IMG/VR virus record: IMGVR_UViG_3300023184_000045
Coordinates: 59,498-123,497 of that record
Origin: a virus
Direction: 5' to 3' (one strand)
Length of the DNA: 64,000 bases
Of the stretch, positions 1-59,833 are shown in pieces. Each line of letters begins with the position of its first letter. The stretch's first letter is position 1. The notes under the pieces are model-generated. The model was not told the origin of the DNA. It did not search any database and saw nothing but the letters and a program-made list of their open reading frames with translations. The position numbers and the translations under genes were made by a program.

Positions 1-1038
1 GTTAGGGTCGGGTATTGCCACTAAACTATCATTATTAACATTTCCTGCTATGCCTAAAGCCTCAACAGTCATTAATAAAGTAAAATCACCCAATTCAGAT
101 ATATGATATACTTCGCCTAATTTAGTTACTCCAATAGCATCTGCACCAAGGCATGCAATACTAATAAATTTTGCAAACTGTTTTGAAAATTTTCCCACTA
201 CGTTAAACTGATTATCAGTGACAAACACTGTATCAAGCCCTGCTATCCATATACGTGTATTACTTGAATTCACCGACATTGTTTTTATTGGTGGATTTAT
301 TTTTGATTGATAATAACTGCGACGAGCATCAAGATAACTTTGCCCGCTGGGAGTGTCAGAATCAAACCATAATGCTTCTAATGAATTAACAGGAAGAACT
401 GTTGGAGTATATGTGCCGCTATAGTAATATCGATGGTTAAATATTATGCGATACATTTTTCTGTTTCCGCAGAGTATCAACGCCTCAACTGTTTCTTTTC
501 CGGTAAGTGGGTCAGTAACACGTAGTTTACTATATTCAATTGGACCAGCAGGAAGGCCAACTCTAGTGAATAATACTTGTTTGTCAGAATAAAAATAAAC
601 TGCATCATTTATATGATCAAGTACAATATGAGTACGCTCCATATCAATTTGATTATAATTAAAACCAAATTCGCGCTGTTTATCTTCGCCATAAAATGTA
701 ATTAAAAATTTTCCTGGTACATAGTTATACCAAGATTTTCCTGCGTCGCCAGGTTTAACTGTAGGAGTATAACTATTTTTATTAACTACAGCAAAAGAAT
801 GAGTTTTAAAATCAAGTTGATACTCGTAAAATGTGTAGTCTAAGTATCCCGGAGGAGAGGTAACAGTAGCTTCGACATAATCAGTGATATTTAATTTAAT
901 TGGTCTAGTATTTGTTACCGTACCATTTATTGATACTGTGACATTTGACCATATATTAAACGTTTGATATTTGTCTGAATAAAAATTTACTGTAATAGGG
1001 CTATTGGGGGCGCATGCCGAAACGCTGCTGAACATCAT
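1..1038 (-). CDS. Virion structural / fibre-like protein, C-terminus cut by window edge
   Basis: An open frame runs from base 1 to an ATG-ATG pair at 1038/1035 with no stop, giving at least 346 residues; the gene continues beyond the left edge. A GGAGG at about 1041-1045 is too close to the first ATG, so the second (1035) is the likelier start. The product is rich in Tyr, Thr, Asn and short beta-type segments. Its C-terminal half has repeated stretches such as IWIAGLDTVFVTDNQFNVVG followed by GADAIGVTKLGEVYHISEL, which look like beta-propeller blades. It is the last visible gene of the minus-strand fibre cluster, so a tail-fibre or receptor-binding role is inferred. No family is recognised with confidence. 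Confidence 0.65.
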   Translation of the reverse strand, partial: MMFSSVSACAPNSPITVNFYSDKYQTFNIWSNVTVSINGTVTNTRPIKLNITDYVEATVTSPPGYLDYTFYEYQLDFKTHSFAVVNKNSYTPTVKPGDAGKSWYNYVPGKFLITFYGEDKQREFGFNYNQIDMERTHIVLDHINDAVYFYSDKQVLFTRVGLPAGPIEYSKLRVTDPLTGKETVEALILCGNRKMYRIIFNHRYYYSGTYTPTVLPVNSLEALWFDSDTPSGQSYLDARRSYYQSKINPPIKTMSVNSSNTRIWIAGLDTVFVTDNQFNVVGKFSKQFAKFISIACLGADAIGVTKLGEVYHISELGDFTLLMTVEALGIAGNVNNDSLVAIPDPN

Positions 1039-41800: not shown

Positions 41801-44800
41801 AGCTTTATTCTATGGTAGCTTTGACAATATAACAAATAACGTAACCGTGGCTGAGGATTGGGGATTACGTGTTGGCGAATACGGCGCCATAAAAACAAAT
41901 TTAGGCATTGATTTAATTTTAAACGAAACAACGTTTAAAGATAATCCACTAACACTAACCGTTATTAAAGATGACGAAGTGCCCGAAGACGGTGTGCCTG
42001 CATTTAGAGCCAGGGATCTAATTAGTCGCCCTCATGATTTTAAATCGCCAATATTCTTAAATCTTCCAATTGCAGAATCCTTAGAAACAGATTTAAAAAC
42101 AGCAGGGTATGTTAATATCAATGATGTTGATGAATTAATTTTTGACCTCAACGATTATGCAAATTTAACTACAACTGCACTGTCAAATTTGGCAACAGGG
42201 TATAAAATATGGGTAGCAAAAGATTTCAATCGCGACTGGCAAGTTTATAAAACTATACAAACTATCAACGAAGTTAATGCAATAGAGTATAGCTTAGATA
42301 ATAAAATTAAGATTACAACTAAGTTTGACCACGGATTGCAAATTGGCAACGTTTTTGCTATTAGGGATATTGACTCTGCATTTGATGGATTCTATCAAGT
42401 ATTGAATGTTGAAACATCAAACACTTTAATTTCAATAATTGATCCTGCACTAATACCTTTGATAATAACAACTCCTATATACGGAGCAGGTGCATTATTT
42501 GAATTGCAACAGTCTAGATTTAAAACAGCCGAAGATCGCGACACATCAATTACAAAAAATCTATGGGACGCCGGCGACTTGACCTGGATTGACCAAAATG
42601 ATTTAAATGGCTGGTCTGTAAACCAATTTGTTGGACTAAGCACAGGCATCTACAGTGGACCAACAAGTTTTTGGGGCATTAACAATGGCACTGTAACTAT
42701 ACGATCGTCTGGGCTGCCTTACCATGCTTATGGAACTGCTATAACTACAGCTACTGCTACAACAAAACACTATATCAGATCGTGGCCTTTACGTGCTGGT
42801 GCAAATGTAGCAGCGTCAACACCTACTGCCATTGGTAATGGCATAATAGGATTCTGTTTAAATGGTGTTCCAATCTACAGCCCAACCGCCGAAGCAATTA
42901 CTTCTTTTGACTTATATCTGACTATTGCAGGATTTAATTATAATCTTGCATACTCTAATTTTGGATCATATGAAATAGACACTGCCGGCGGGACTAGCCT
43001 GGCTGATGGAACTTATCTTTACAGAAGTTTTAGTTTCAGATCAGCGTGGGAAAATGGGCAAGGCGGAGTATCACCAAGAGAGTCTGGGTACAATGTACCT
43101 GACGTACTGTCGATACCGTACTACAATGGTGATTTGTTACACTCCGATGGGCACAGTAAAATTATTGGATTTGCGTCTGATGGTTACCCAATATACGGAC
43201 CGTATGGATACGCCGTTCCGCTTAATGTTTCCAGTGCACCGATAAGAATGATAAGCAGTTACAGACTTAAAGACTTATCGTATAGAGAACCCACTGAAGC
43301 ATGTGATTTAACCACATATCCAATGGGAATTTTTATACAAGATTACGCTTATTCAGAAGGATACGGAACATTAGATGCGCATAACGGAAGATATTGTATC
43401 ACGCCAGACTACCCCAATGGTACCTATGCATACTTTGCAACCATTGATGATATTGGGCCTGCATATCCGTACTTTGTAGGACCAACATACTATGGTGATG
43501 TTCCGACTGTTAGTAACTCCCTAATAGGCGGCCCTGGAATTGCTCCTTACGGCTTCCAAACAATTTCCAATCCAGTCTGGACTGAAATTAAAAAACAAAT
43601 GCCTACAGTAGATATTAACAGTGTTAAAGGTTTGCACATATTTAACAATATAAGCAAAACTATAATTGCACGCCTTGATTTCATTGACCCTGTTAAAGGA
43701 AAAATATTAGGCACAGCGGAAGCAGACATTGATTTTATAACCTCGGTTGACCCTGCATTTTATAACAATGGTACAGATGAGGCCTTGACAATTAATATTG
43801 ACTACAATTGGGGTAAACAACAAGTTGGTAAAATTTGGTGGGACTTAGATGCGGTTAGATACTACGACTACGAGCAGGGCTCTGTAGATTATAGAAAAAC
43901 TAATTGGGGCAAGTTCTTTACTGGAAGCAATATATTTGTATATGAGTGGGTAGAAAGTGATGTATTGCCTTCAGGGTATGTTGCAGCTGGGTTAGACGGA
44001 ATTCCTAAATTAGCAGACGATAGCGCCTATGGTACATTGTATTATGTTGACAGTGTAACGTTAACAGTCCGTACCAAGTACTATTATTGGGTTAGAGCTA
44101 AAAATTCAGTTGGATTAAACAACAAATTGCATAGCGTATTATCATTGGAGCAATTAATAGCTAATCCAATTATGCAAAATATACCATATGCTGCACTACT
44201 CAATGATAAAACAATAGCAGTTTATAATGTTGGAAAATACTTGTCAGGCAATGACATTGCATTGCATATTGATTATTCAACGTCGCATAATGAAAATATA
44301 GTGCATAGTGAATACGAGTTATTCCAACAAGGTAATAAAAGTGCAGTAATGCATCCCAGAATAGAGACTAAATTAATTGATAGTTTAGTTGGCACAGACG
44401 CCGATGGCCAACTAGTGCCAGATCCAAATTTACTGCCAGCAGATAGATTAGGATTGTCTAATAAACCAAGACAAACTTTAATTGTTAACAGATTAAAAGC
44501 AATTGAAAATATAATTAAATTTGTTAATTTAATATTAGTGCAACATCCTGTTGCGTCGCGTATTTTCAATAAACAAAATATATATTCTGACAACTTTTAT
44601 GCTCAATCACCATATCCCAACGAATACGACTATACAGTTGACTCAATTGTTGAAATGGATTATATAGCCGAAATTTCGTCACTTGATTTTGAATTTGGAA
44701 AACAATACGTTATAAGTCAAGTTGGTAATACCACGCAAGAAGACTGGAACATAGCAGCAGGAACCACTGGGGCAACATATGCCGACGGTGATATATTTAC

Positions 44801-47030
44801 AGCAAATAGCCAAGTTAGCGGCACAGGTTATGCATTTCCGAGTAGAGTGTTAGTAAAGTACGATGTCAATTACAGCAATCGTTGGACATTGTATCAAATG
44901 AAAGTTCTTACAAAACCTTTATTAATAAAAATACAGGGTTACAATGCAACTAATTTCTGGAACTTTGTTGATTGGTATGCAGCTGGGTACGATAGTAAAA
45001 CTTTAATAATTAATAAAATATTAGACAATTATAATCAAACATACACTACATCTTTTACCTCCGGAGAAATTGTAAGAATAAATGACAACGGCGACGGATT
45101 GTTTGGGATCTATAAAGTAAACAATTCTGGCAAATTTGATTTAATTGCACTAGAGTCGGGAAGTATACAACTTACTACTAATTTCTGGAAAGAGTTTGGA
45201 TATAGCCATTTTGACTTCGACTCTGATACATTTGACTTTAACTACTTCACAGAACTTAGATTTATCTTTAATGGATTAAAACAAGACATCTTTACCAAAG
45301 ACTTGGCAATTTACTACAATCAATTTTTATTTTATATAATTGAATATATTCTGTCAGAACAAAAAGATGTTGACTGGATATTTAAAACAAGTTTTATTTC
45401 TATACAGCATACATTAACTGGATTAATACAAACGCCTACGTATATTAAAGACAGGCAAGATCTTTATAGGCAGTACATTGAAGAAGTTAAGCCTTATAGA
45501 ACAAAAATAAAAGAATATACTTTAAATTATGCAAATTTCGAATCAATTGATACTGCTACTGTAACAGATTTTGATTTACCTGCATACTACGAACCATCAC
45601 TGGGATTGTTCCGTAGTCCCAATGGTGAAATGCCTGAAATAGATGCTAATTTGTTATTGTCTAATCCTAAGTATCAGGATTGGAACAATCACCACAAGTA
45701 TACTATTAATAGTGTTGAAATAGCCAATTCTGGTTTTGGATTTATTGTAAATCCAGACATATCAATAATTAGTACAGACACCACTGGGCATGGCGCTAAT
45801 GCTAAAGCTACAATTTTTGTTCCTGCAGGATTAACATCTGGCAATATTGCAACAGTTACAGTTACAGACGTGGGTCAAAATTATACTAGTACTCCGTTGG
45901 TGGTTGTCAATGGTACTGGTGCAACCCAAACAAGTATATCGGCAGTTGGACATCATCGCCCGGCTGTATTAAGTCCGCGAATGACTAATAAAAAGATTAG
46001 AAAAATCAACACTACAATTAAGTTTGATAGGGTGCAATATACAAGCAAAGTAGTCGACTGGACTAAGAATACTTTTTATAGTGCAGGTGCATATGTAAGT
46101 TACCAAGGGCAATGTTACAAAATTAAAGGTGATGTTACAACGTCTAATATATTTGATAGAAAACAATTTGACGTAGTTAGTGTAGAAGAGCTTACTAACG
46201 CAAATGATCGCATAATGGCATTTTATCAGCCAACTTCTGGTATGGTACCAAAAATATTGTCAAGACTAATGACCGGTTTAGATAGACCGCAGACCAACGC
46301 TAATCTTGATGCAACCACTGATACATTAATATATGGCGGCGGTTTCTCGGGTGCTGCTATCCCGGCTGGTCAGTTTGTAACTGGGCAACACTATATAATT
46401 ACAGTAGTTGGTAGTACTAATTTTACGCTAATTGGTGCAAGCTCTAATAAAATTGGATTGAGATTTACAGCAACAGGCCCTGGCGCAGGTACAGGATCTG
46501 CTGCAATATCTATTACTACAGATCAGTTTGGTAATGTAGCAGGTGTTAGCCCGGAAAATATTTCTGTTTACGGTGGTGCATTTGTTTCTGAAACGTTTAG
46601 CCATGCACCAGAAGAACTATTGCCGGGGATAACCTATGACTCACTTGGAATACGTGTATTGGCAACAAACGGAAATGGGTACCACCAACTTAAAGACATG
46701 TTAGATGCCACTATTGTGCGTCTAATAGAAACATCAAGGAACACAACGATAACAAGAGACTTAAAAGTTGACGATTTAACAATAACAGTGGCCGATGCAA
46801 CCCTGTTGTTTAGCCCAAATCCGATAAACATAATTCCGGGTAAATTGTTTATCAATGGCGAAGAAATCCACTACTATACAAAATCTGGTAATACATTGGG
46901 GCAATTACGACGCGGGGTCGGCGGTACAGGCACACCGCTAGTGCATTTATCTGGCTCGGCTGTCGAAAATGCCAATGTTTTAACAAATAATCCCGACGGG
47001 AAAACAGGTACTCCGCCTGATTTATCTTAA
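35892..47030 (+). CDS. Giant baseplate-associated structural protein (3712 aa)
   Basis: The largest gene in the window, located where T4 has gene 7. The N-terminus reads NFLPDIFKTDINKKFLGATI and SSLTNPSDNFILEPTDTRQN. At about 170-250 there is a cupredoxin-like segment (PTITLVRGTTYQFVVDQVGH, then PLWIQT...). At about 2260-2540 lies a YHYH-type domain: GLPYHAYG, GFCLNGVPIYSP, HSKIIGFASDGYPIYGPYGY and YCITPDYPNGTYAYF. Near 3495-3540 is the small shared module (TGQHYIITVVGSTNFTLIGA), and another version lies near 2935-2985. The C-terminus has FINGEEIHYYTKSGNTLGQL, a beta domain common at the end of phage structural proteins. The rest is long alternating beta and helix segments with no catalytic motif seen. 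I infer a wedge or baseplate-periphery protein that replaces the function of gp7 and its partners. Confidence 0.8.
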   Translation: MATRKTLNFLPDIFKTDINKKFLGATIDQLVSEAEISKLNGLVGRKFSSLTNPSDNFILEPTDTRQNYQFEPAVIVNNESNGIELYGDYQALIEKISYYGGITDNHNRLFESEYYSYNPRIDLDKFVNYTRYFWLPNGPDTVTVSSGVDGAPKAFNFTRNDQGNSVVVNVNDGNSVPNPTITLVRGTTYQFVVDQVGHPLWIQTEIGTDGKKDFDSAVSTRDIYGIDNNGTDNGIITLEVPERDSQDYYFKMPILDFVDYSVSIPFSEIDGQYWNQPGDSVGDIDGDPTYPDRRYVIFTSTSTNNNDWINFNGATVPVEKRHGLWQITIDATSKIKLEFIRNIPIGYRVRINHGDAYTGYEFFKNSSGNLVQSPPITAPLSTLYYQDQDNELIYGKIVIVDRPGETIDVTTDIIGQKNYTSFNGVVFTNGLKIKFDDTIFPVSYRGVEYIVEGVGISISLIKFSDLDPVESIIDTASIPFDTDFFDSIEFEKSILTYVTNHDYIVMNRQSIDLNAWVRTNRWYHEDVIRLTAEYNKTTLVVDPASRAKRPIIEFEPNLQLFNSGKFFTGVIDRIDTNLIGNLITDAFLTINDKLVSDFAGSGSLKYKEGQLTIFPNDINSEVRRRIYRVSFKNQSAATSFAGTLTGTISTVGGSRRASGIGTSFLAAGIQVGTLLYNSSNNNYIGKVLMVLSNTDLLLDNNVAQTYTEVTVKYNYPRIALEPQIVVAPDHVVVARTGSNKNRSYWFDGSNWIKAQLKTSFNQPILFDLVDKNDISLSNQVMYPTSTFAGTEIFSYVVGSSTTDSVLGFSLKYSGIGNSVSDINFKNNFDSDTFTYKPYDYVTKNISDVGYLRKNVSNTEYKLLNSWNTVAEESKQYQHMSDKADGTTNYFEIDILPDTVLDQPNVKVFVNNKMIATADFELVTIGIRHAVHIKTTLILNDKIDILVFNRSNTSELGYYQIPGNLEFNAQNILLTTLTLGQIKGHWDEIGKNTNGLIGDPLATNNLRDLNTQLQSGSILQHSSPLLYPSLFLLDSQVNFINGVELARKDYSRFKNKFLELCTTTVGLSPADPAAGVDKILKIINGVKNQTFAWHYSDMIPWGGNFVTDTYKIINAQKTIYTLNNIYNAIGDNIYPDNGVSNKAVLVYLNSTQLTIGVDYTITAGNPYITLDSTVTLVEGDILTIKGYKNTDGSYVPETPTKLGMYPKFIPEKILDNSYRTPIYVIQGHDGSLTPTFGDLRDDYLLELEKRIFNNLKVEYNAELFDMIAATPGKFRASDYSRLEFNQVLNSEFLKWIGTNQLDAGANNYFLSNDEFSWNYNQTVDSFDGGELPGYWRGIYRYFYDTERPNTHPWEMLGITVKPFWWESYYGVAPYASTNSAMWTDISLGYIKGDLKTNINYVRPGLLAHLPIDTNGDLVSPLQAKLVGSFNGSAFSQSYAIGDQGPVESAWRKTSDYVFSLNRALAVLKPAKYFGLMINTAKTTRDDLTNQFVLTENKKRVTVDSILINGETVSGSIIRASSYINWIHGYLTNLGVNAATKIRTTIDHLGVKLGYKMAGYTDKKYITALVEQYSPNSTNQSAIVPDENYIVYLNKSAPIRKAVYSAVIIRKTTTGYSVNGYNLNYPYFTVIPSQANGNFYTIESLTTRAVIYRDYQDIKLNIPYGYEFASSQELVDFLVGYGRYLTAQGFIFDTYETNLKEVKNWILSAKEFLAWTLQGWNEGSVLILSPVSYQIEFFANDGVIDEITNIQSASHILGPNFNVIRIDELSILKEPTLTTVTAITGQTIAFIELNLVQFEHALIFDNTTIFDDVIYRPELGSRQYRIKLIGSKTTNWDGSLNPSGFIYNTGSIDEWAPGYDYKKADIVSYKNQNFTAIADVSASDKFEFDKWSLTDRKITSGLVPNFAQNSSKFDNIYDIDNPNIDENFASYGRGLIGFRNRSYLEDLGMDQTSQSKFYQGFIKEKGTLKSIEALFYGSFDNITNNVTVAEDWGLRVGEYGAIKTNLGIDLILNETTFKDNPLTLTVIKDDEVPEDGVPAFRARDLISRPHDFKSPIFLNLPIAESLETDLKTAGYVNINDVDELIFDLNDYANLTTTALSNLATGYKIWVAKDFNRDWQVYKTIQTINEVNAIEYSLDNKIKITTKFDHGLQIGNVFAIRDIDSAFDGFYQVLNVETSNTLISIIDPALIPLIITTPIYGAGALFELQQSRFKTAEDRDTSITKNLWDAGDLTWIDQNDLNGWSVNQFVGLSTGIYSGPTSFWGINNGTVTIRSSGLPYHAYGTAITTATATTKHYIRSWPLRAGANVAASTPTAIGNGIIGFCLNGVPIYSPTAEAITSFDLYLTIAGFNYNLAYSNFGSYEIDTAGGTSLADGTYLYRSFSFRSAWENGQGGVSPRESGYNVPDVLSIPYYNGDLLHSDGHSKIIGFASDGYPIYGPYGYAVPLNVSSAPIRMISSYRLKDLSYREPTEACDLTTYPMGIFIQDYAYSEGYGTLDAHNGRYCITPDYPNGTYAYFATIDDIGPAYPYFVGPTYYGDVPTVSNSLIGGPGIAPYGFQTISNPVWTEIKKQMPTVDINSVKGLHIFNNISKTIIARLDFIDPVKGKILGTAEADIDFITSVDPAFYNNGTDEALTINIDYNWGKQQVGKIWWDLDAVRYYDYEQGSVDYRKTNWGKFFTGSNIFVYEWVESDVLPSGYVAAGLDGIPKLADDSAYGTLYYVDSVTLTVRTKYYYWVRAKNSVGLNNKLHSVLSLEQLIANPIMQNIPYAALLNDKTIAVYNVGKYLSGNDIALHIDYSTSHNENIVHSEYELFQQGNKSAVMHPRIETKLIDSLVGTDADGQLVPDPNLLPADRLGLSNKPRQTLIVNRLKAIENIIKFVNLILVQHPVASRIFNKQNIYSDNFYAQSPYPNEYDYTVDSIVEMDYIAEISSLDFEFGKQYVISQVGNTTQEDWNIAAGTTGATYADGDIFTANSQVSGTGYAFPSRVLVKYDVNYSNRWTLYQMKVLTKPLLIKIQGYNATNFWNFVDWYAAGYDSKTLIINKILDNYNQTYTTSFTSGEIVRINDNGDGLFGIYKVNNSGKFDLIALESGSIQLTTNFWKEFGYSHFDFDSDTFDFNYFTELRFIFNGLKQDIFTKDLAIYYNQFLFYIIEYILSEQKDVDWIFKTSFISIQHTLTGLIQTPTYIKDRQDLYRQYIEEVKPYRTKIKEYTLNYANFESIDTATVTDFDLPAYYEPSLGLFRSPNGEMPEIDANLLLSNPKYQDWNNHHKYTINSVEIANSGFGFIVNPDISIISTDTTGHGANAKATIFVPAGLTSGNIATVTVTDVGQNYTSTPLVVVNGTGATQTSISAVGHHRPAVLSPRMTNKKIRKINTTIKFDRVQYTSKVVDWTKNTFYSAGAYVSYQGQCYKIKGDVTTSNIFDRKQFDVVSVEELTNANDRIMAFYQPTSGMVPKILSRLMTGLDRPQTNANLDATTDTLIYGGGFSGAAIPAGQFVTGQHYIITVVGSTNFTLIGASSNKIGLRFTATGPGAGTGSAAISITTDQFGNVAGVSPENISVYGGAFVSETFSHAPEELLPGITYDSLGIRVLATNGNGYHQLKDMLDATIVRLIETSRNTTITRDLKVDDLTITVADATLLFSPNPINIIPGKLFINGEEIHYYTKSGNTLGQLRRGVGGTGTPLVHLSGSAVENANVLTNNPDGKTGTPPDLS

Positions 47031-49140: not shown

Positions 49141-52100
49141 GTGACTTTACCAATTTGGACTACAAATCCCAATACTCCATTATCATTGGGTAGCATACAA
49201 ACTGAATTTACTGGGGTAAACCCTATACGTCTCAGTGAGTACTATGCTACTCCGTCGGGATACGTTACTCCTGACAGGCAAGGGTATCCGTATGGAGTAG
49301 AAACTGCTATTCCGCTATTGGGAACACCACTATCGATTAGTAATTTTTACGGTGCTAGTGCAATTCCTTACGCCATCTACCCGGACAAATACATCTATAA
49401 CGAAGGCGAAGTTGTTGTCTTTACTGTTACTGCTCCGGAACCCGACGGAAATGTTTTATATTGGACAATTGAGCCAGTATATGGTTCAACTTTTGGTCAA
49501 GCAAATATCATTATTTCGCCTTTATCCTTGCCCACTGGTGGCCTAAATGCAGCATACAATCAAACTATTACTGCCACCGGCGGCATTGGTTCGTATACTT
49601 ACACATACACCAGAGGTGCTTTGCCAGCTGGGCTAACTTTGTTTAGCGGCAATGGTAGAATTGCAGGAACTCCAACGGCTGCTGGTAGCACAGTATTTTT
49701 AGTAAATGTTACAGACAGCGAGCTTAATTCAAATGTAAAAATATACACTATAGAAATAACTAATGTTGTTATTAGTCTATCGCCGGGTACCTTAGCACAA
49801 GGTTACAAGAACGTTCCGTTTACACGAACAATCACAGCAGCAGGTGGAACTTCGCCGTATGTTTTCTCAAATATTGGAAACTTGCCCGACGGTGTAACAT
49901 TAACATCAGCTACTGATACAACTGCAACGCTAGCTGGTACAACTACTAATGGCACTTATACATTTACAATTAAAGCAACTGATGCCAATAACAATTTTGG
50001 TAATGTAACATATGCATTAACAATAAACGACGTTGGTGTTACAGTTGATCCTGCAACCTTATCATCGGGTACTGTTAATATACCGTATAGCCAAGTGCTA
50101 ACAGCTACGTCTACCAATGGATCTGGACCTTACATATTCACTCTTGACGGCGGCACTACATTGCCAACTGGACTAACACTAACAGCAAACACAGGACTAC
50201 TTGGCGGAACTCCAACTGTATCTGGAACAACATCATTTACAGTTAAAGCAACAGATTCAAATAACAACTATGGCACACGACAATACTCGTTAACCATTGG
50301 TTCTGTAACTATTGCATTGTCACCGTTTACCTTGCCGGCAGCATATAGAAATGTAGCATATACACCTTTAACTTTTACAGTGTCTGGCAGCGGATCACCA
50401 CCGTTTACGTACAGCATAATATCTGGCTCGTTACCAGCTGGTATGACGTTAACTTCAAACGGCGTATTGTCTGGCACTCCATCGGCCACTGGTAGCTTCC
50501 CTGTAACTGTACGAGCACAAGATTATTATACAAACAATGGAGTTAGGGCCTATACCTTAGTGGTGGGAACGATTTCAATTGGATTTATTCCAGCATCAAT
50601 GCCCGCTGCAACTGCAAGAGTTGACTACACCCAGGCAATATTAGCCAGTGGCGGGACTGCACCTTACTCGTTTGCTATAACCAGTGGTAGTTTACCCAGT
50701 GGTTTTTCAATGGGACCAACTGGTATAATAACTGGTTCATCAAATGTACCCGTTGTTAGCAACAGTTTCACAGTAACTGTAACAGACGCTAACGGTAACA
50801 CAGCTGATAAAATTTATTCATTGTTAGTCAATGCAGTTTATATTACTATTACTCCAACAACCTTGCCCGATGGTGTCAAAACCGTAGCATATAGTCAAGC
50901 CCTTACTTCAGCTAACGGAACTGGTAATCCAGTGGTATATACTTACTCAGTTACCGCAGGGTCGTTGCCACCTGGCTTATCATTATCGTCAGGTGGCCAA
51001 TTATCTGGTACCCCAACTGTTATTGGCGGCCCGTATAGCTTCACGGTTACATCAACCGATGCAAATTTAAACTCTGGCACAAGAGCATACTCTATTGCTG
51101 TTTCTACAGACCAATGGGTAGTAGATTTAACTAGTTATAGCCTTGGATCGGCAGGCCCGGCACCGTTTGCTGCTGATGAAAATACATCACTGACATTTAC
51201 AATCACATCACCAAAAACATTAGCAGATGGTGTAGCTTCGCAATTGAGAATTATTGGACCAAAGACAACCGACGGAAGCGATGTGATATACGAAACTATT
51301 GACACGATTCGTGGTGCATACACTTACGACAATGGATTCACACAAGAATACAACATTACAGGATCTGCACTTACACTAGCAAAATGGATTGGTGCTCATT
51401 TATACAGATCAAATGAAACATTCACTGGATTGACAATTAATACAATAACATCGCAAACACGATACGGATTGTATAGAAAACCAGACGCTATGGGACTTGC
51501 ATTTTGGACATTAAAAGCCGTTGCAATGGGATGGGCTGCTGCTAGTACGGCATTGGTTTCTGCATTTATGGAAGCCTCTGAATTGGTAGGTAATAACCCC
51601 AGTAACCCGCTCCTTGACGGAACTAGATGTTTAACTTCTAGTAAAACATTTGTGTCTACAGGCGGCACAGACTTTTATGACAGAGCCGACCATACAGGCA
51701 ACACCGGAATAGCAACTGTAAACATACTGGCAGACAATCTATTAGAAGGCGAAGAATCCTTTGCGGTTGCTGTTTATTATAACAATGCTTTAGTGGCCAA
51801 TTGGGGAAGGGTAGTAGTCAACGATACATCTACACCGCCACCGGCTAACATTTATATGAGCGGTGTTGCTACTACTGCACAAAGAGGCACGATATACACT
51901 GATCAAATAATTTTGTCTGGCACAGGCACTTCACCGTTTTTGTTTAGTAAAACTGGAGGGACTCTGCCACCTGGGTTAACTTTGGGAACAGCCGACGGAA
52001 CATTGTATGGCAGACCGACTTCAATTGGTGTATTTGCTTTTACTATCCAGGTTAGAGATAACAATAACTACTATACACAAACACAATACACTATAACTGT

Positions 52101-52905
52101 TAGTGCAGCAACTATTACTGTGTCACCAAGTTCATTGCCAGCCGGTACTGCACTGTCGGTGTATAGTCAACAACTATCAGCCAGTGGCGGGGTAGGAACT
52201 TATGTTTACAGTTTATTGTCAGGCTCGTGGCCAGCTGGTGTTTCAATGTCCGGAAGCGGCCTGATATCAGGGACAATTGGGTCAACGGCAATTAGCCAAA
52301 CTCCTACAGTTAGGGTGACCGATTCGTATAGTAACACCGGTGATAAACAATATGTGTTTACAGTAAATCAATACTCTTCACCACCGCCTGTGTCACCACC
52401 GCCTGTGTCACCACCCCCGGTAACGCCACCACCTCCTGCCTATGTACCACAAAACAATTTAACTATTATTTTAACTGGGTCTGGGCAAGGATACTACGAC
52501 ATGTATACTGATAGTTTAGGTAGAACAGTTTACTATTACGATAAGTCAAATACACTGCGTGTAGGAAAGTTCTCTGTGCTTGGTCGCTTAGAAGCTACAG
52601 CTTATGTAGCAAACCCGCCAAGTGAAATTACTTGGTCTATTGCGTTTGGATCACTGCCACCTGGTATGAGTTTAGTTCCGGCTGGGTACGGATTGCTTTC
52701 AATACAAGGCACTCCTACGATAACTACATATTGCCAATACAATGGCTGCTCACCATTTAGTGCAATTTATAATCCAATGGATCATTGGGGCGGACAGGGC
52801 AATGCAGGTGTGCCGTTTACGCTTAAAGCCACTGCTGCAAACGGAGACTATGGAATTACATATTGCGCAGCCTTTGTGTATACATTTGACGGATTCCTCA
52901 CTTAA
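49141..52905 (+). CDS. Giant Ig-like adhesin with nested helical domain (1254 aa)
   Basis: GTG start with AGGGAT upstream. From about residue 120 to 640 there are six to seven He-PIG/cadherin-type Ig repeats of about 85 residues, each with a GGTxPYxF/GxLPxGLxL/GxLSGTPT/FTVxxTDxNxNxG pattern. Then a Calx-beta-type half-domain begins (about 640-720) and is interrupted by a helical insert at about 729-853 that resembles DUF4214: TLAKWIGAHLYRSNETFTG, then YGLYRKPDAMGLAFWTLKAV. After the insert the Calx-beta pattern resumes with LLEGEESFAVAVY and VVVNDTS. Two more Ig repeats, a Pro-rich linker (PPPVSPPPVSPPPVTPPPPA at about 1080-1100) and a C-terminal domain follow. Repeats of this kind usually act in cell-surface binding. 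It is probably a long side fibre or adhesin. Confidence 0.75.
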   Translation: MTLPIWTTNPNTPLSLGSIQTEFTGVNPIRLSEYYATPSGYVTPDRQGYPYGVETAIPLLGTPLSISNFYGASAIPYAIYPDKYIYNEGEVVVFTVTAPEPDGNVLYWTIEPVYGSTFGQANIIISPLSLPTGGLNAAYNQTITATGGIGSYTYTYTRGALPAGLTLFSGNGRIAGTPTAAGSTVFLVNVTDSELNSNVKIYTIEITNVVISLSPGTLAQGYKNVPFTRTITAAGGTSPYVFSNIGNLPDGVTLTSATDTTATLAGTTTNGTYTFTIKATDANNNFGNVTYALTINDVGVTVDPATLSSGTVNIPYSQVLTATSTNGSGPYIFTLDGGTTLPTGLTLTANTGLLGGTPTVSGTTSFTVKATDSNNNYGTRQYSLTIGSVTIALSPFTLPAAYRNVAYTPLTFTVSGSGSPPFTYSIISGSLPAGMTLTSNGVLSGTPSATGSFPVTVRAQDYYTNNGVRAYTLVVGTISIGFIPASMPAATARVDYTQAILASGGTAPYSFAITSGSLPSGFSMGPTGIITGSSNVPVVSNSFTVTVTDANGNTADKIYSLLVNAVYITITPTTLPDGVKTVAYSQALTSANGTGNPVVYTYSVTAGSLPPGLSLSSGGQLSGTPTVIGGPYSFTVTSTDANLNSGTRAYSIAVSTDQWVVDLTSYSLGSAGPAPFAADENTSLTFTITSPKTLADGVASQLRIIGPKTTDGSDVIYETIDTIRGAYTYDNGFTQEYNITGSALTLAKWIGAHLYRSNETFTGLTINTITSQTRYGLYRKPDAMGLAFWTLKAVAMGWAAASTALVSAFMEASELVGNNPSNPLLDGTRCLTSSKTFVSTGGTDFYDRADHTGNTGIATVNILADNLLEGEESFAVAVYYNNALVANWGRVVVNDTSTPPPANIYMSGVATTAQRGTIYTDQIILSGTGTSPFLFSKTGGTLPPGLTLGTADGTLYGRPTSIGVFAFTIQVRDNNNYYTQTQYTITVSAATITVSPSSLPAGTALSVYSQQLSASGGVGTYVYSLLSGSWPAGVSMSGSGLISGTIGSTAISQTPTVRVTDSYSNTGDKQYVFTVNQYSSPPPVSPPPVSPPPVTPPPPAYVPQNNLTIILTGSGQGYYDMYTDSLGRTVYYYDKSNTLRVGKFSVLGRLEATAYVANPPSEITWSIAFGSLPPGMSLVPAGYGLLSIQGTPTITTYCQYNGCSPFSAIYNPMDHWGGQGNAGVPFTLKATAANGDYGITYCAAFVYTFDGFLT

Positions 52906-52924
52906 TTAAAGTATAAGTATTACT

Positions 52925-55900
52925 ATGCCAATAACACAATCAGATTTTACCCCTAGCACGCTAACAGGGACTGTAACATTAGCAATTAAAACTGCTACAT
53001 TTACCAAAACTGTAACAGCAGATCAGCTGGCTGAAGGTAATGAAAAATTTGTCGCTAAATTAAGAAAAGACAGTACGTCTGGCACGGTAGTGGCTACATC
53101 AAATGTAGTCAGAATAAACGATACTAGCCAAGGCGGCGAAACTGTTCAGATTAGTCCTATAGCACTTCCTGTAGTTGGAAATAAATTAATCAGACTTACT
53201 TCGTATTCGCAACAACTAACAGCCACTGGCGGCGTTCCTGGTACCTATATATTTACATACTCGGGCACTTTGCCACCCGGAATATCAATGTCATCGTCGG
53301 GCTTGTTGTCTGGCACTCCTACTACCATTGGCGGCCCTTACAACTTTACGGTAACTGCAACTGATGCCAACACAGATTTTGGAGTACAACTTTATAGTGT
53401 TAACGTTGAGGGGCCCGGAATCTACTTAACACCTAGTACGTTGCCAAATGGATCACAAAATATTGACTACAAAACTTTAGCTGGTAATCCTTTAATTTTT
53501 TCTGCAACTGGCGGCGCTGCTCCTTATACATTTGATGTTACGCAAGGATTTTTGCCAGACGGGTTAACAATAAGTCCCAATGGGTTACTGTCAGGTAGAC
53601 CAACTGCTGCTGGATCAACAGCATTTAAAATTACAGCAACTGATGCAAATGGTAACACAGGAAGCCAAACGTATACACTAGTGATAGTTGCTGTTCCAAT
53701 TACTATTTCGCCTAGTTCATTAAATAGTGCTGCTAAACGTGTAGCCTATAGTCAACAGTTAACTGCTAGTTCTAGTAAAACAACTACTTATACATATACA
53801 CTGTCTGCTGGAACATTGCCAACAGGCTTAGCATTGTCGTCTAGCGGCTTAATATCTGGCACAACAGTCGAACTTGGTAGCAAAACATTTACAGTTAAAG
53901 CTACAGATGCTGATGGAAGTTTTGGCACCAGACAATATACATTGTCTGTTAGTGATGTTTTTATTTTTATATCTCTTACTTCAGGCGGCACCAGCACTTC
54001 ACTTACTGTTGCCAACAGATCGCCATACTCGGACACGTTCCAAGCAGCCGGCGGTGGTGGCCCTTACACCTGGTCGTACACCAATGGTACATTACCACCT
54101 GGCCTTATATTGAATACTCAAAGCGGAGTACTAAGCGGATCACCAACTTCTGTTGGAACATACAATTTTTCAATTGTTGCAACGGATAGTGCTCAAAATT
54201 CTGGTATTAAGAATTATACATATACTATATCCTCAGTTGGAATAGTATTAAGCCCGTCGACATTGTCGCAGGCTACAGTAAATGTGGCTTACTCACAAGC
54301 CTTGTCTGCTACTGGTGGAACTTCGCCGTACTCATTTACAGTTACAACTGGCACATTACCAACAGGTATTACATTGTCGTCGGGCGGCACTTTGTCTGGC
54401 ACCTGTGGAATTTCAATTGAAAGAACATTTACAGTTACAGCTACTGACGCCAACGGCAACACTGGCACACAGCAGTACACTCTTGAAGTAGCATACCAAA
54501 GTTGGAACATAGATTTAATTAGCGTAAACGGTGGCATAATACCCGACTACCAAGTTTTTACAAATTCAACTAATCCAAATAATGCAACAGCAATTAACGA
54601 AGGTGAGTACGTTATGTACTTTACCGTTGTTGCAAAAAATGCAACTAATCTTGATACATTATATTGGAATCTATCACCTGCCCCTGGCCAAACTAAAATT
54701 GTTAATGCAGGAGATTTTACATTACCGTCGGGCTCAGGTATAGTGCCTGGTGTTGTTCCGTATGACTGGGGCGATTATGCCACTGAGTTTAATAGAACTG
54801 GAACACCATTGGCTATTGCTAAATGGATTGCCGGTAATGTATATGTATCAAATAGTGCTTTTACAACCAGTAGCGGAACACGGTACGGCATTCTCAGAAA
54901 GCCCGATGCCAATGGGCTTGACTATTGGGTTAGTCAAGTAATTAGTAATAGTTGGTACGTCAGTAATGCATGTACTATAGGATTCTTAGACGCATTTTTT
55001 GCAAGTGTGGCTGCAACGTCAGAAGCGTCGCGGGCGCTAACCAATGTTAAGACTCCTATTACAACAGGTGGCCTATACTTCTATGATAGACAGTATGCTC
55101 CGCCGTATACATTTGACTATGGGTTTAGTCAAGAGTTTAACATGACTGGCGCTGATTTAGTATTAGCAAAATGGATTGGTAATAATTTATATTTGTCAAA
55201 TTCTACATTTACAGGTGTAAACGTAAATGGAACCACTGGCCAGACACGTTACGGTCTGTTTAGAAAACCCGACACTGTTGGTGTTTTGTACTGGACATTA
55301 CGTGCTAAAGAATTAGGTTATAGTCAAAACGATACTAGATTGATCAATCTGTTTTTTACTTCTATTAATCTAACCGGCGGAGATGGTGAAACCAGAGCAA
55401 CATCTAGTAGCAAGTCGTTCTTAGTTGAAGGTGGATCTACTTTTACAGATAGAGAAACATGGTCTGGTATTTCAGTCTACGGAGAGACTGATTTTATACG
55501 TGAATTTAATTTACCCGTAGATAGAATTACACTAGCCGAGTGGATCACATCGCAGCTTTACGGATCAAACAATGCATTTACTACCACTGGCGGTACAAGA
55601 TACGGGTTGAATAGAAAATCAGGTGTTGTTGATCTAAACTACTGGGTTACTACAGCAACTTCACAAGGATGGGCTGCTGCATCACCTGCATTAATAAATG
55701 CATTCTTTAATGCTGTACAAGGTGACGACTTACCAAGATCACAAACTAATCAAAAGGAATTTTTGGAAGACAGCCTGACGTCGGGATCGGTGTTTAATGA
55801 TCGGCCAGACCAATTGGCTGGTAGTGTAGTTATATACGATCCTTATACATATACCAATGGATATCAACAAGAGTTTGGCAGAACACAAGGCGAAACTGAC

Positions 55901-58900
55901 TTTGCTACTTACATCGGCGAGACATTATACGCATCAAACACACAATTTACTGGCTTGACCATTGGCGGTCAAACTAATCAGACACGTTACGGGTTAAATA
56001 GAAAACCTGACCTAATAGGACTTAACTATTGGGTTAACTATGCTATCACTAATAATCTAGTTACCATTGATGACAGTGGCAGTCCTACTTACGTACTCAC
56101 TGGACGTACTGCATTACTTAATGCATTTTTTACTGCTGTTAGTAGCATTGATCCTAGTAGGTCTTTATTAGCCGATAAACCATTTATTGAAGGCACAGCA
56201 CCCGGCACTAAATTTTATGATCGCCCGGACAAATCTGGCTCACTTAATTTTGGCGCAATAGCAGACCAATTAACCGAAGGTCCAGAATATTTCATACTAC
56301 AAGTTAGAACTGGTAGTACTGCTGGTCCAGTTGTGGCAACTAGCGATACAGTGGCTATTGTTGATACTAGTACTGCGACAGGTAATACATTTGGCGGCGG
56401 CGGAACAGGATTAACAAACTACACAGCAATTGTTAACGAAGGTGATACATTAAATTTCCAAATTTGGGCCCCTGGCACTATTCCTGTTACTACATTAACA
56501 ACCGGAGGCAATGTACAGCTGGCAATTGTTCAAACTAAGAATGTTGATGCTACTGACTTTGTTGGCAATGTAGAACTTGTAACAGCCACCGCTGTTAGTG
56601 GACGCACCTGGACTGCATCAATTACGGCCAAAGCTGACAACAAGACCGAAGGATTTGAATACTTTACTGCTGCTGCAAATTGGGGATCCAATTTGGCAAT
56701 AGTCACTGCTCCTGGCACTGTTGGAATACGTGACACATCAACGGGTTCGTCCTTTAAAATTTCTACTCAACCAACAAGCATCACCGAAGGTGATATTGGT
56801 ACATTTACAGTTGACGCCATTGCTCCCGACGGTACATTGGTATATTGGAAAATTAATCATATATCAACTAACAATTCGGATTTTGTTCAAGCATCGACTC
56901 GTTGGGAAGTTATATATGCTTTTGCTAATAATTTAACGGCACCTGTGTCGGTTGGTAACGACACAGGGCAATTTACAGAAGATACTTTGTCATATTGGAT
57001 GACAGTCGGACTTACATCTGGAACAGGATTTGATTCACGTATTGCTGCTCTCAGATCAGCCAATTCTGGCGCGGCAGCAGCCTGGGATGCAGCACGAGCA
57101 TTGGACGCGGTACAGTCAAACGGTACAGGTTGGTCTGCAACAACCGTGGGCGCCCCTGTAATTAATTCTAGAGCTAAGGTGTTAAAAGCCTACTACGATA
57201 ATCTAGAAGCAAAATTATTCCCAGACGAGAACAGCATCAGATATTGGATGTGTCATAGTATGGGCACTAATAATGCTACGTTTAACTCAACAGTTACTTC
57301 AGCAAACGACTCTGACCCTGGCGGCTATCTAGCCGCATTGACAGAACGTGCTCAATATTATCCACGTGCAACTCGTCCTGAAGTACTTTATGCTTATGCA
57401 GCTAATACAAAAACTGAATTGTTTCCGGTAGAAACAACCATTCAATACTGGATGGTTCACGGACTAGCAGGCTTCAATGATTTTGTTGAATGGTATAGAA
57501 ATCAAAATCCATCGTATGCATCATCATGGGATGCTGCTCGTAGTGCCGACCTATTAGGTACAACCGGATCGCCAATACTTGCACTAAGATCTGATGTAGT
57601 AAGAGCTTATCAGGATAATCCAGATGCAACAATTTATCCTACAAACGCTCAGATTAGATATTATATGACCATTGGGCTTGCTAGTTTTGCCAGTGATATA
57701 CAAATTTATAAGAGTGGGTCGCCGGTAACATGGGCTAGTGAAAATGCAGCACGAACTGCATTGGCCACCTTTGCAGGCCAGGCATGCACTGGCTCGGCTA
57801 TTATTAATAACAATACTGCTAATTTCTCTATTAGAGCCAGAAAAGATTTACTAACCGAAGGCAATTTGCGATTTACAGTTAGCATTAGCAAAACTGCAGG
57901 CGGAACGGCACAATTTACATCGTCTGAAATTAGTGTAATTGACAGCAGCACTTCTTTGTCATCTACAGTACCATTTGATGCAACAGGTTACACCTATGGA
58001 ATAAATTATACTCAAAGTGGTGTAATATATCTGGCTAGCGGATATGGATATCCATTGATATACAATCAAGCAGCGGTTACCGGACAACTGGCATTAACTT
58101 ACGCTATTAGCAATGGTGTACCTGCTGTAACATTAGGAGGATCATCTGCACCAAGGGTGAGCTTTACAGTTACAAATAGTTCGGGCGACACTGCCTACTA
58201 TCAAGTAATAGTTGAATACTTTGCACGTTCGCACATGGAGATTCTCCACACCCTGTCAGACAGCAATGGTATATTAGCATCAGGTAGTATGGAGTATCAT
58301 AGAGATACTGGCCTTTCCGGCAGTGGCCAAGACATTGATAGAAATGGCTATTGGACTTACGAGCTTGTATGGACACTAATAGTAGAGCCCGGTACCGGTA
58401 CATATTATGTTGGTATGTCATCTGTAAATAGTTATTCGCCAAACTACCCAGCTAAAACAACAGGTAACCCTGCTTATGAATTTGTTGATCCATCTGGCGT
58501 TAGAAAAGTAACAGTAAATCCATTGGTGTATACATATCCGGTTGGATATGGTTTCCAAACATGTTTTGTTTATGGATATACGGACAAACCTAGCTACCAC
58601 GACCAGATAGATGAAGGTGCATATACAGCGGCTTTCCAAATACACACTAGTAACATTCCGGCATCAACTGTTTTGTATTGGAACATATACTCTGCACAAA
58701 CATTGTCTGCTACTACAGCAGATACACCAGTAGCAGCAGATTTTACATCTGCTGTAACATCCGGAACGGTTGTTGTACAAAATAATTATGCACGAGTTGA
58801 CTTTACCGCGGTTGCAGATCAAATAACAGAAGGACACGAGTTCTTTGTACTACAAGTTAGACGTGGCAGCAACACAGGTCCTATATATGCTACCAGCAAC

Positions 58901-59833
58901 ATAATTAAATTAGCAGATACTAGCACTGGCGCTAATCAAGACTATGTTGAATACTTTGTTGGTCCATCTAGTGTAAATGCCAATGAGACTTTTAATGTAG
59001 CAGTAAAAGGTGGCGTACCGAGTACACCATTTGTGTGGTCAGGCGAAACCACTGGAGATGGTACATTAGACGGATCGGGTAATTTTGCCTTTAATGGACT
59101 TTCGGTATCGGCCGGAACTTATTCTTGGACATTTGTATTTGATGCAACTGGCCACTCAAAGACTTATACAGTAACAGCGTTGGCCGGCGCCGCACCTCCA
59201 CCACCACCTCCGCCAGCAGTGTATACACCAAATGTAATATGGGACTACCGTGGCAGCACTTATCTAATTCAAGGAACCTATAGTAATCATGGCACCAGCG
59301 GCGATTGGTATTCCACTGGCAACGGGTTACCGGGTGTAGTAAATTATAACCATTTTGAAAGCCAGACTCAGTCTGCATTATTATCTGGCACCTACCAGTG
59401 GACAGCAGCAGGGTCAAGTGCGATTAATGTAACATGGTCAAGTGCAGATACATACGGCCCAGCTTATGCAACTATTAGTGCGCCATATTCACAAAATTCC
59501 GATTGGAAAATTGAAGTGACATACTTTGCCAGAGCACACATGAATGTAACATTTAGTATTATACAGCAATATCTTGGCCCTGAGGTAATAGCAACTACCA
59601 CTAGACACTATAATAGAAATTCAGGGTATGATGACGATGGCGCCTTTTATGGTACATTGGGATATTGGTTATATACACAAACTGTGTATGTCACTGCTAC
59701 TGGAAGCGGCATCAATTTACTTGCTAAAATTCAAGGCGTAGACAACGGCGACTATAATTATCCAAGAAGTGGCGGCATACATGATTATCCAGATCCAATT
59801 GGGTTCTGGAAATGTACAGCTACGCAATATTAA
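52925..59833 (+). CDS. Giant Ig-like adhesin with several nested domains (2302 aa)
   Basis: Begins in the middle of a Calx-beta domain (VTADQLAEGNEKFVAKLRKD, then VVRINDTS), then about five He-PIG Ig repeats (residues 75-520). Residues 612-1104 hold four DUF4214-like helical inserts of about 110 residues, each with an AKWI...LY.SN, YG-(L/I)-(F/L/N)RKPD-type and (W/Y)W signature, followed by Calx-beta ends such as LTEGPEYFILQVRTGS. Residues about 1322-1608 carry a second type of helical repeat (R-x-x-V-x-x-A-Y, then YWM-x-x-(G/S)-(L/M)) inserted in another Calx-beta unit. Two copies of a FAR(S/A)HM-type domain lie at 1757-1865 and 2192-2302 (C-terminus). A poly-Pro linker is near residue 2090. 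It is probably a second, larger adhesin for host attachment. Confidence 0.75.
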   Translation: MPITQSDFTPSTLTGTVTLAIKTATFTKTVTADQLAEGNEKFVAKLRKDSTSGTVVATSNVVRINDTSQGGETVQISPIALPVVGNKLIRLTSYSQQLTATGGVPGTYIFTYSGTLPPGISMSSSGLLSGTPTTIGGPYNFTVTATDANTDFGVQLYSVNVEGPGIYLTPSTLPNGSQNIDYKTLAGNPLIFSATGGAAPYTFDVTQGFLPDGLTISPNGLLSGRPTAAGSTAFKITATDANGNTGSQTYTLVIVAVPITISPSSLNSAAKRVAYSQQLTASSSKTTTYTYTLSAGTLPTGLALSSSGLISGTTVELGSKTFTVKATDADGSFGTRQYTLSVSDVFIFISLTSGGTSTSLTVANRSPYSDTFQAAGGGGPYTWSYTNGTLPPGLILNTQSGVLSGSPTSVGTYNFSIVATDSAQNSGIKNYTYTISSVGIVLSPSTLSQATVNVAYSQALSATGGTSPYSFTVTTGTLPTGITLSSGGTLSGTCGISIERTFTVTATDANGNTGTQQYTLEVAYQSWNIDLISVNGGIIPDYQVFTNSTNPNNATAINEGEYVMYFTVVAKNATNLDTLYWNLSPAPGQTKIVNAGDFTLPSGSGIVPGVVPYDWGDYATEFNRTGTPLAIAKWIAGNVYVSNSAFTTSSGTRYGILRKPDANGLDYWVSQVISNSWYVSNACTIGFLDAFFASVAATSEASRALTNVKTPITTGGLYFYDRQYAPPYTFDYGFSQEFNMTGADLVLAKWIGNNLYLSNSTFTGVNVNGTTGQTRYGLFRKPDTVGVLYWTLRAKELGYSQNDTRLINLFFTSINLTGGDGETRATSSSKSFLVEGGSTFTDRETWSGISVYGETDFIREFNLPVDRITLAEWITSQLYGSNNAFTTTGGTRYGLNRKSGVVDLNYWVTTATSQGWAAASPALINAFFNAVQGDDLPRSQTNQKEFLEDSLTSGSVFNDRPDQLAGSVVIYDPYTYTNGYQQEFGRTQGETDFATYIGETLYASNTQFTGLTIGGQTNQTRYGLNRKPDLIGLNYWVNYAITNNLVTIDDSGSPTYVLTGRTALLNAFFTAVSSIDPSRSLLADKPFIEGTAPGTKFYDRPDKSGSLNFGAIADQLTEGPEYFILQVRTGSTAGPVVATSDTVAIVDTSTATGNTFGGGGTGLTNYTAIVNEGDTLNFQIWAPGTIPVTTLTTGGNVQLAIVQTKNVDATDFVGNVELVTATAVSGRTWTASITAKADNKTEGFEYFTAAANWGSNLAIVTAPGTVGIRDTSTGSSFKISTQPTSITEGDIGTFTVDAIAPDGTLVYWKINHISTNNSDFVQASTRWEVIYAFANNLTAPVSVGNDTGQFTEDTLSYWMTVGLTSGTGFDSRIAALRSANSGAAAAWDAARALDAVQSNGTGWSATTVGAPVINSRAKVLKAYYDNLEAKLFPDENSIRYWMCHSMGTNNATFNSTVTSANDSDPGGYLAALTERAQYYPRATRPEVLYAYAANTKTELFPVETTIQYWMVHGLAGFNDFVEWYRNQNPSYASSWDAARSADLLGTTGSPILALRSDVVRAYQDNPDATIYPTNAQIRYYMTIGLASFASDIQIYKSGSPVTWASENAARTALATFAGQACTGSAIINNNTANFSIRARKDLLTEGNLRFTVSISKTAGGTAQFTSSEISVIDSSTSLSSTVPFDATGYTYGINYTQSGVIYLASGYGYPLIYNQAAVTGQLALTYAISNGVPAVTLGGSSAPRVSFTVTNSSGDTAYYQVIVEYFARSHMEILHTLSDSNGILASGSMEYHRDTGLSGSGQDIDRNGYWTYELVWTLIVEPGTGTYYVGMSSVNSYSPNYPAKTTGNPAYEFVDPSGVRKVTVNPLVYTYPVGYGFQTCFVYGYTDKPSYHDQIDEGAYTAAFQIHTSNIPASTVLYWNIYSAQTLSATTADTPVAADFTSAVTSGTVVVQNNYARVDFTAVADQITEGHEFFVLQVRRGSNTGPIYATSNIIKLADTSTGANQDYVEYFVGPSSVNANETFNVAVKGGVPSTPFVWSGETTGDGTLDGSGNFAFNGLSVSAGTYSWTFVFDATGHSKTYTVTALAGAAPPPPPPPAVYTPNVIWDYRGSTYLIQGTYSNHGTSGDWYSTGNGLPGVVNYNHFESQTQSALLSGTYQWTAAGSSAINVTWSSADTYGPAYATISAPYSQNSDWKIEVTYFARAHMNVTFSIIQQYLGPEVIATTTRHYNRNSGYDDDGAFYGTLGYWLYTQTVYVTATGSGINLLAKIQGVDNGDYNYPRSGGIHDYPDPIGFWKCTATQY

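Follow-up and report, generated by a model that had tools for sequence, protein, structure and literature searches.

Helical units distantly related to DUF4214 are nested inside Calx-beta-like domains of two long phage adhesins

Are the helical units of two long, adhesin-like phage proteins placed inside the beta domains surrounding them, or do they merely lie next to them? This question is raised by a locus within a stretch of 64,000 nucleotides (hereafter, the window), which corresponds to positions 59498–123497, i.e., the right part, of the 123,497-base virus record IMGVR_UViG_3300023184_000045. Its 2 genes encode long proteins, P0001 (1254 aa) and P0002 (2302 aa), composed of He_PIG Ig-like repeats and Calx-beta-like domains. 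The original prediction, made from the sequence alone, described inserts resembling the bacterial domain DUF4214 that interrupt Calx-beta domains in both proteins. This observation proved to be real and is, with corrections, partly confirmed.

To identify the units, we used a profile built from units of other phages only, without any window sequence. This revealed exactly 5 matches in P0001 and P0002, scoring 32.5–48.3 bits, while 1,000 residue-shuffled copies reached at most 4.6 bits; therefore, the units do not represent chance matches. The 5 related inserts of approximately 115 residues are thus distributed over both adhesins as had been proposed, with 1 in P0001 and 4 in P0002, and no sixth copy was obtained when the complete 123,497-base record was searched. 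All copies are open and of full length, and their alignment shows a common domain with 22 invariant columns. The proposed AKWI...RKPD motif reflects this common pattern but is loose, as unit 3 of P0002 reads EWI and RKSG and unit 4 reads ATYI. In a tree including 18 other units, the 5 window units cluster as a single clade (support 100/99); most likely, they therefore arose by multiplication in this lineage, over both genes. DNA tandem repeats were ruled out as the origin of the array: between positions 49000 and 60000, only 2 overlapping repeat calls were obtained, both corresponding to a proline-rich linker.

The features on which the following analysis is based are all encoded on the + strand:

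49141..52905, +, P0001, 1254-aa adhesin-like protein (He_PIG, E 6.6e-79, 8 stretches)
51115..51312, +, P0001 host Calx-beta, first half, strands A to C or D (residues 659–724; structure model and window-containing profile)
51313..51684, +, P0001 nested DUF4214-related unit (residues 725–848; 48.3 bits, non-window profile)
51700..51831, +, P0001 host Calx-beta, second half, strands E–G, LEGEESF...VNDTS (residues 854–897; 20.6 bits)
52925..59833, +, P0002, 2302-aa adhesin-like protein with He_PIG repeats, several Calx-beta-like domains, and nested arrays (He_PIG, E 1.7e-52, 5 stretches)
54497..54748, +, P0002 host Calx-beta, first half (residues 525–608; 14.1 bits)
54749..55090, +, P0002 nested unit 1 of 4 (residues 609–722; 47.9 bits)
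55100..55453, +, P0002 nested unit 2 of 4 (residues 726–843; 43.0 bits; modelled alone from 55091)
55466..55804, +, P0002 nested unit 3 of 4 (residues 848–960; 42.6 bits)
55838..56224, +, P0002 nested unit 4 of 4 (residues 972–1100; 32.5 bits)
56231..56371, +, P0002 host Calx-beta, second half, LTEGPEYF...IVDTS (residues 1103–1149; 31.8 bits)
56405..56740, +, P0002 uninterrupted Calx-beta-like domain, the empty comparison (residues 1161–1272; alignment and profiles)
58583..58924, +, P0002 uninterrupted Calx-beta-like domain (residues 1887–2000; profiles)

P0001 is arranged as an N-terminal region, He_PIG Ig-like repeats, one Calx-beta with a single nested unit, a proline-rich linker, and a C-terminal domain, while P0002 lacks the N-terminal region of P0001. 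In both proteins, the inserts are flanked by matches to first-half and second-half Calx-beta profiles, in agreement with the proposal that the beta domain starts, breaks for the helical unit, and resumes: the first half extends from an EG motif to strand C, and the second half from strand E through TEG.E.F to DTS. Between the 4 tandem units of P0002, nothing of the beta domain is found. Therefore, both adhesins are indeed interrupted, but by 2 nestings (1 unit and 4 in tandem) rather than 5. Likewise, the proposed range of 51325–56235 covers the units but cuts the host halves, with the nested domains extending over about 51115–51834 and 54497–56371.

Independent half-domain profiles were built from only 7 uninterrupted Calx-betas outside the window. 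The second-half profile matches after both inserts (31.8 bits in P0002, 20.6 bits in P0001), and the first-half profile matches before the P0002 insert with 14.1 bits, compared to at most 7.6 bits in 1,000 shuffles. Furthermore, when 12 interrupted or fragmentary rows were aligned with 9 uninterrupted Calx-betas, MAFFT, unprompted, placed the split at a single position. Both P0002 itself and relatives also contain uninterrupted Calx-beta-like domains. In both halves, acidic residues are invariant or nearly so (E35, D73, D590, E594, E597, and D623 in A9 numbering), and we take these positions to be putative calcium ligands. The predicted structure of P0001 residues 659–898 comprises strands, then 4 helices, and then 3 strands (predicted local distance difference test [pLDDT] 67.5, predicted TM-score [pTM] 0.54). 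A VIA-align search with this model returned Calx/NCX calcium-binding domains in all 9 best rows (Z 7.5–8.0). In the top example, 3ead_C (Z 8.0, root-mean-square deviation 3.2), 103 of 112 residues are aligned, with model residues 1..240 matching the continuous chain 444..553, so that the alignment of approximately 103 residues covers both sides of the insert. The entry point lies between strands C and E, in either the C–D loop or the D–E turn, as the strand preceding the unit in the P0001 model is of low confidence.

Several results weigh against this anatomy. The independent first-half profile finds nothing before the P0001 insert, where the first-half call rests on a profile containing that half together with the structure model. 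This model is moderately confident, with pLDDT <50 at the junctions, and its input alignment already displayed the split. The VIA-align Z of 8 is near the stated background of the tool, and Foldseek with the same model gave no match in the PDB at E ≤ 1e-3; 3ead_C ranked seventh. In addition, the Pfam Calx-beta family (PF03160) matches none of the window proteins or their relatives at E ≤ 1, whether interrupted or not. The alternative would be separate adjacent domains, in which the "first half" is another small Ig-like domain and the unit a bead between 2 beta domains. A related clade (at least 8 contigs) does have this arrangement, with the unit placed after a complete Calx-beta, and orphan first-half matches occur in Ig-like domains without a second half (L015); the missing P0001 match to the profile devoid of window sequences points in the same direction. 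However, the second halves lack strands A–C, so they cannot represent entire domains; the inserts of both window proteins and of relatives are flanked by balanced first and second halves; and a solved Calx-beta chain aligns continuously over both halves of the model. We therefore consider adjacent domains improbable for the window, and nesting of the units within Calx-beta-like domains highly probable.

What, then, are the units? Their assignment as DUF4214-like holds as a distant homology, but does not reach the Pfam threshold: the best window score for PF13946 is 21.8 bits (P0002), compared to a gathering cut-off of 23.2 bits, and no DUF4214 match at E ≤ 1e-3 was obtained in the whole record. 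Among 18 units, 10 match DUF4214 at E ≤ 1, the best at 1.7e-5. Comparison of the unit family with 24 bacterial DUF4214 domains by hhalign resulted in a probability of 95.6% over 40 columns, and with 314 domains in 94.6%, while the best of 30 column-shuffles reached 2.3%. A R.PD..G...W core is present in both (R58, G64, and W68, invariant or nearly so in 27 units; R23, D26, G29, and W33 in DUF4214), and the part in common corresponds to helices 2 and 3. By contrast, the C-terminal S-x-E-(F/Y) signature conserved in bacterial DUF4214 (S54, E56, F57) has no E-F counterpart in the units. At the level of sequence, the units are related to DUF4214 distantly, well above controls.

Modelled alone, unit 2 of P0002 is predicted with pLDDT 94.1 and pTM 0.88, with helices at 20–34, 62–75, and 82–95 and a hairpin at 39–54. 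This model suggests that, relative to DUF4214, the unit adds a beta-hairpin after its first helix. Foldseek gave no match for the model at E ≤ 1e-3 in the PDB or BFVD, and the best VIA-align hit was a Cascade chain (Z 3.2), which does not establish a new fold. Sequence searches of solved structures with the units gave nothing significant (one chain at E 0.92 in one search, none in another), and the only chains matched by the bacterial DUF4214 profile, all weakly, were ApcE (E 0.14), ApcH (0.64), a rod linker (0.87), and one NADH-dehydrogenase subunit. The structure 6t72, which we take to be the N-terminal domain of the Caulobacter S-layer protein RsaA, was matched by a typed DUF4214 consensus at E 0.0098. 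Conversely, 6t72 gave no match to the DUF4214 profile at E ≤ 10 and is absent from the fold lists shown for the unit model, while hhalign of a 41-residue RsaA stretch yielded 4.9% for DUF4214 and 0.2% for the units. The RsaA N-terminal domain binds O-antigen according to PMC6978808, and PMC11970703 describes a DUF4214 protein for which the Caulobacter S-layer protein served as modelling template over 88 residues. An RsaA-type O-antigen-binding relation of the units is thus a lead only.

The units are found in further phages, which revealed where else they are placed. INPHARED (50,697 phage records) contained no match for the insert region nor for the unit of a relative, and a genome scan found no cellular relatives of the units. 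Viral-contig scans identified 17 loci and 2 further contigs, and many more were added via neighboring conserved gene parts. Counting each contig once (loci L001–L017, L038, and L039), we find a first gene with one or two units inside its second Calx-beta in 19 contigs; the first Calx-beta of that gene is uninterrupted in the representatives typed. For 14 contigs, the second gene also holds a unit, located in the ILG..GYGQ loop of an unrelated helical region; one alignment contains 5 sequences with this loop filled and 18 homologues with it empty. In another clade (including L060:7267-7704 and L230), the unit follows a complete Calx-beta in 8/8 loci that kept it there, and a later, overlapping scan found the same arrangement in 14/15 loci, the fifteenth being cut off. 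Therefore, the unit need not be nested, and one gene family contains both nested and free-standing forms. In L104:5995-13741, homologues of both relative genes bear other large additions (glycine-rich, Ig-like, and Calx-beta domains) instead of units.

In the second gene of these relatives, units and backbones differ in their similarity. Between L008 and L010, the DNA of the unit is 94% identical (61/62 codons at identical residues counted), compared to 61% elsewhere (42/83); the similar tract begins at the gene start and ends with the unit, after which similarity drops. L012, L016, and L002 have a second unit class in common (83%–87% DNA identity) on backbones of 59%–67%, whereas the closest backbones, L002 and L008 (78%), carry units that are only 69% alike. 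Since unit and backbone similarity disagree, the unit behaves like an insertion domain that can be transferred. Furthermore, 12/23 substitutions between the near-identical contigs L036 and L029 fall within units, which make up 9.8% of 11.3 kb (binomial P 3.6e-7), and pooling of distinct sites in the shared span places 12/30 in units (P 2e-4). Another substitution cluster, between L036 (10700-10827) and L030, is found in the body of the second gene, outside the unit.

Here, too, some results argue the other way. The comparison of L036 with L030 shows no clear enrichment in units (5/35 substitutions, P 0.10). Moreover, the contigs are metagenome assemblies, and the binomial P overstates the enrichment, because a single import or an artefact of assembly may also produce clustered differences. 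Conservation of the units depends on the gene: it is mostly below that of the flanks in the first gene and mostly above that of the body in the second, which rules out that units are always fast-evolving. Exchange is known from relatives only, as no relatives of the window's own genes were found beyond the units; a viral-contig scan with the N-terminal part of P0002 likewise revealed none. Taken together, we regard it as probable, on the evidence of the relatives, that the unit is a transferable module.

A function in host recognition can be considered in light of the genomic context. The source is a marine-type phage with 2 giant tail adhesins bearing helical units, and the closest counterparts of its baseplate-wedge protein belong to jumbo myoviruses (Phosso, Atu_ph07, PBECO4-like), with <60% identity in 71/71 matching records. 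The genes for P0001 and P0002 are located downstream of baseplate-hub, baseplate-wedge, and tail-fibre genes. They are separated by 19 bases and differ in reading frame, with 5 open codons preceding the P0002 start. The upstream neighbor (35892-47030) encodes a 3712-aa protein with a YHYH match (E 6.5e-29) and a carbohydrate-binding module 5/12 match below the cut-off.

We propose that the compact helical domain of approximately 115 residues, related to DUF4214 and with a hairpin between its first helix and the R-x-P-D motif, would be an insertion domain, able to enter surface loops of other folded domains without breaking them. Here, it would enter between strands C and E of Calx-beta, and the beta-sandwich would close around it, displaying it sideways on a long adhesin. 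The unit multiplied in this lineage to 1 copy in one gene and 4 tandem copies in the next, while in related phages, it occupies other loops and is exchanged between backbones, and recombination can probably multiply or replace it. The data show the units, how they are nested, and that those of this phage have a common origin, as well as the other locations and the exchange in relatives; the purpose is an inference: the display may serve attachment to glycans or proteins of the host surface, with copy gain and exchange altering host recognition. Contact with the host surface is inferred from the gene location, the exchange, and the placing of DUF4214 in surface proteins in PMC12780176 and PMC11970703. 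While we somewhat favor this explanation as a whole, the putative receptor-binding role of the units is more tentative.

Two other roles have to be weighed. The units could be structural spacers or protein–protein linkers that stiffen or lengthen the fibre or join chains, so that copy number would tune length and not receptor choice. The 4 tandem units inside one host domain would fit this, as would the weak matches of the bacterial DUF4214 profile to phycobilisome linker and core chains; however, the linker matches are not significant, and allele exchange in the second gene as well as the location of half of the L036–L029 substitutions in units fit a contact surface better. We consider such a role rather unlikely, and the same applies to neutral mosaicism, i.e., tolerated insertions without a role of their own that are spread by recombination of repetitive adhesin genes. 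One module indeed occurs in 3 settings, with one clade merely having the unit after a closed Calx-beta, and tail fibre genes are described as hotspots of domain mosaicism in PMC10684548. Against this, Y6, E15, and R58 of the unit core are invariant and 7 positions nearly so in 27 sequences from diverse phages; this conserved core, together with the intact window copies, implies that the fold of the unit is under selection. The proposal that the inserts systematically diversify a host-binding surface fits the module exchange and the differing copy number and place in relatives, but no close relative of the window's proteins was found. Overall, the interpretation put forward in the original prediction is partly supported.

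Additional features of the 2 proteins also involve Calx-beta domains:

49366..49509, +, P0001 orphan Calx-beta first half, He_PIG repeats directly after (residues 76–123; E 0.0018)
52988..53128, +, P0002 orphan Calx-beta second half at the protein start (residues 22–68; 30.9 bits)
56747..57949, +, P0002 third host domain: Calx-beta first half, another helical array, weak second half (residues 1275–1675)

The third host domain (about 56747-57949), which falls beyond the range of the original prediction, holds a different helical array of 4 repeats (residues 1326–1638, 56900–57838) with the pattern R..V..AY..N...YWM..GL. Its second half scores 7.1 bits with the independent profile, near shuffle level. 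The array has no detectable relation to DUF4214 (hhalign 3.1%) or to the unit (0.2%), and no relatives were found among INPHARED phages or in the viral-contig scan. Furthermore, one Calx-beta appears to be split over neighboring genes, P0001 containing an orphan first half and P0002 opening with an orphan second half. The latter begins just where inserts enter the other Calx-betas; the former is weak, its E of 0.0018 deriving from a profile that contains window sequences, and it is missed by the independent profile. Gene fission at an insert-prone weak point or a sandwich closed between 2 polypeptides would both fit. A more speculative and rather doubtful extension is that the unit might be a receptor cartridge, self-folding and without a recognized solved relative, which would plug into at least 2 unrelated virion domains, travel between phages as an allele, and reset host recognition without disturbing the fibre; residues 76–123 of P0001 and 1–68 of P0002 may then close one sandwich, docking P0002 on P0001.

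Compared to known systems, the units have a core of 40 columns in common with DUF4214 (PF13946), found in surface and secreted bacterial proteins: a helix, R.PD..G..(Y)W, a helix, and F..S. They differ by the beta-hairpin and extra N- and C-terminal segments, by the absence of the S-x-E-(F/Y) end, and by being nested in another domain, whereas DUF4214 occurs as tandem beads. The host domains resemble Calx-beta (CALX/NCX CBD1 and CBD2) in their fold according to VIA-align and in their conserved acidic residues, but lack a Pfam match and carry inserts of 124 to about 490 residues between strands C and E. Fragment exchange in receptor-binding proteins is also described for tail fibres and spikes (Smug et al. 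2023; PMC10684548); the combinations described there are of domains lying side by side, while here, a module is found inside loops of 2 unrelated folds, with filled and empty homologues. Similarly, PMC6949934 describes Ig-like and BACON repeats of phage structural proteins as tandem accessory virion domains that are thought to bind carbohydrates, whereas here the domain is a helical insertion and not an Ig-like addition. In the literature found on phage or tail Calx-beta and on nested or inserted tail-fibre domains, such inserts are unreported, with other wording not having been searched.

Thus, domain mosaicism of phage adhesins is known, and an exchangeable helical module inserted into loops, in several hosts and places, adds a new form to it. 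As fibre mosaicism is usually seen as end-to-end domain swapping, a loop module with filled and empty homologues and with alleles exchanged over diverged backbones represents a testable case of plug-in diversification. The units also indicate a domain class whose structure is predicted confidently and for which no solved counterpart was found, and a Calx-beta region tolerating inserts of 124 to about 490 residues is useful to protein engineers. For the phages themselves, the exchangeable unit may act as a putative swappable part of the host-binding surface.

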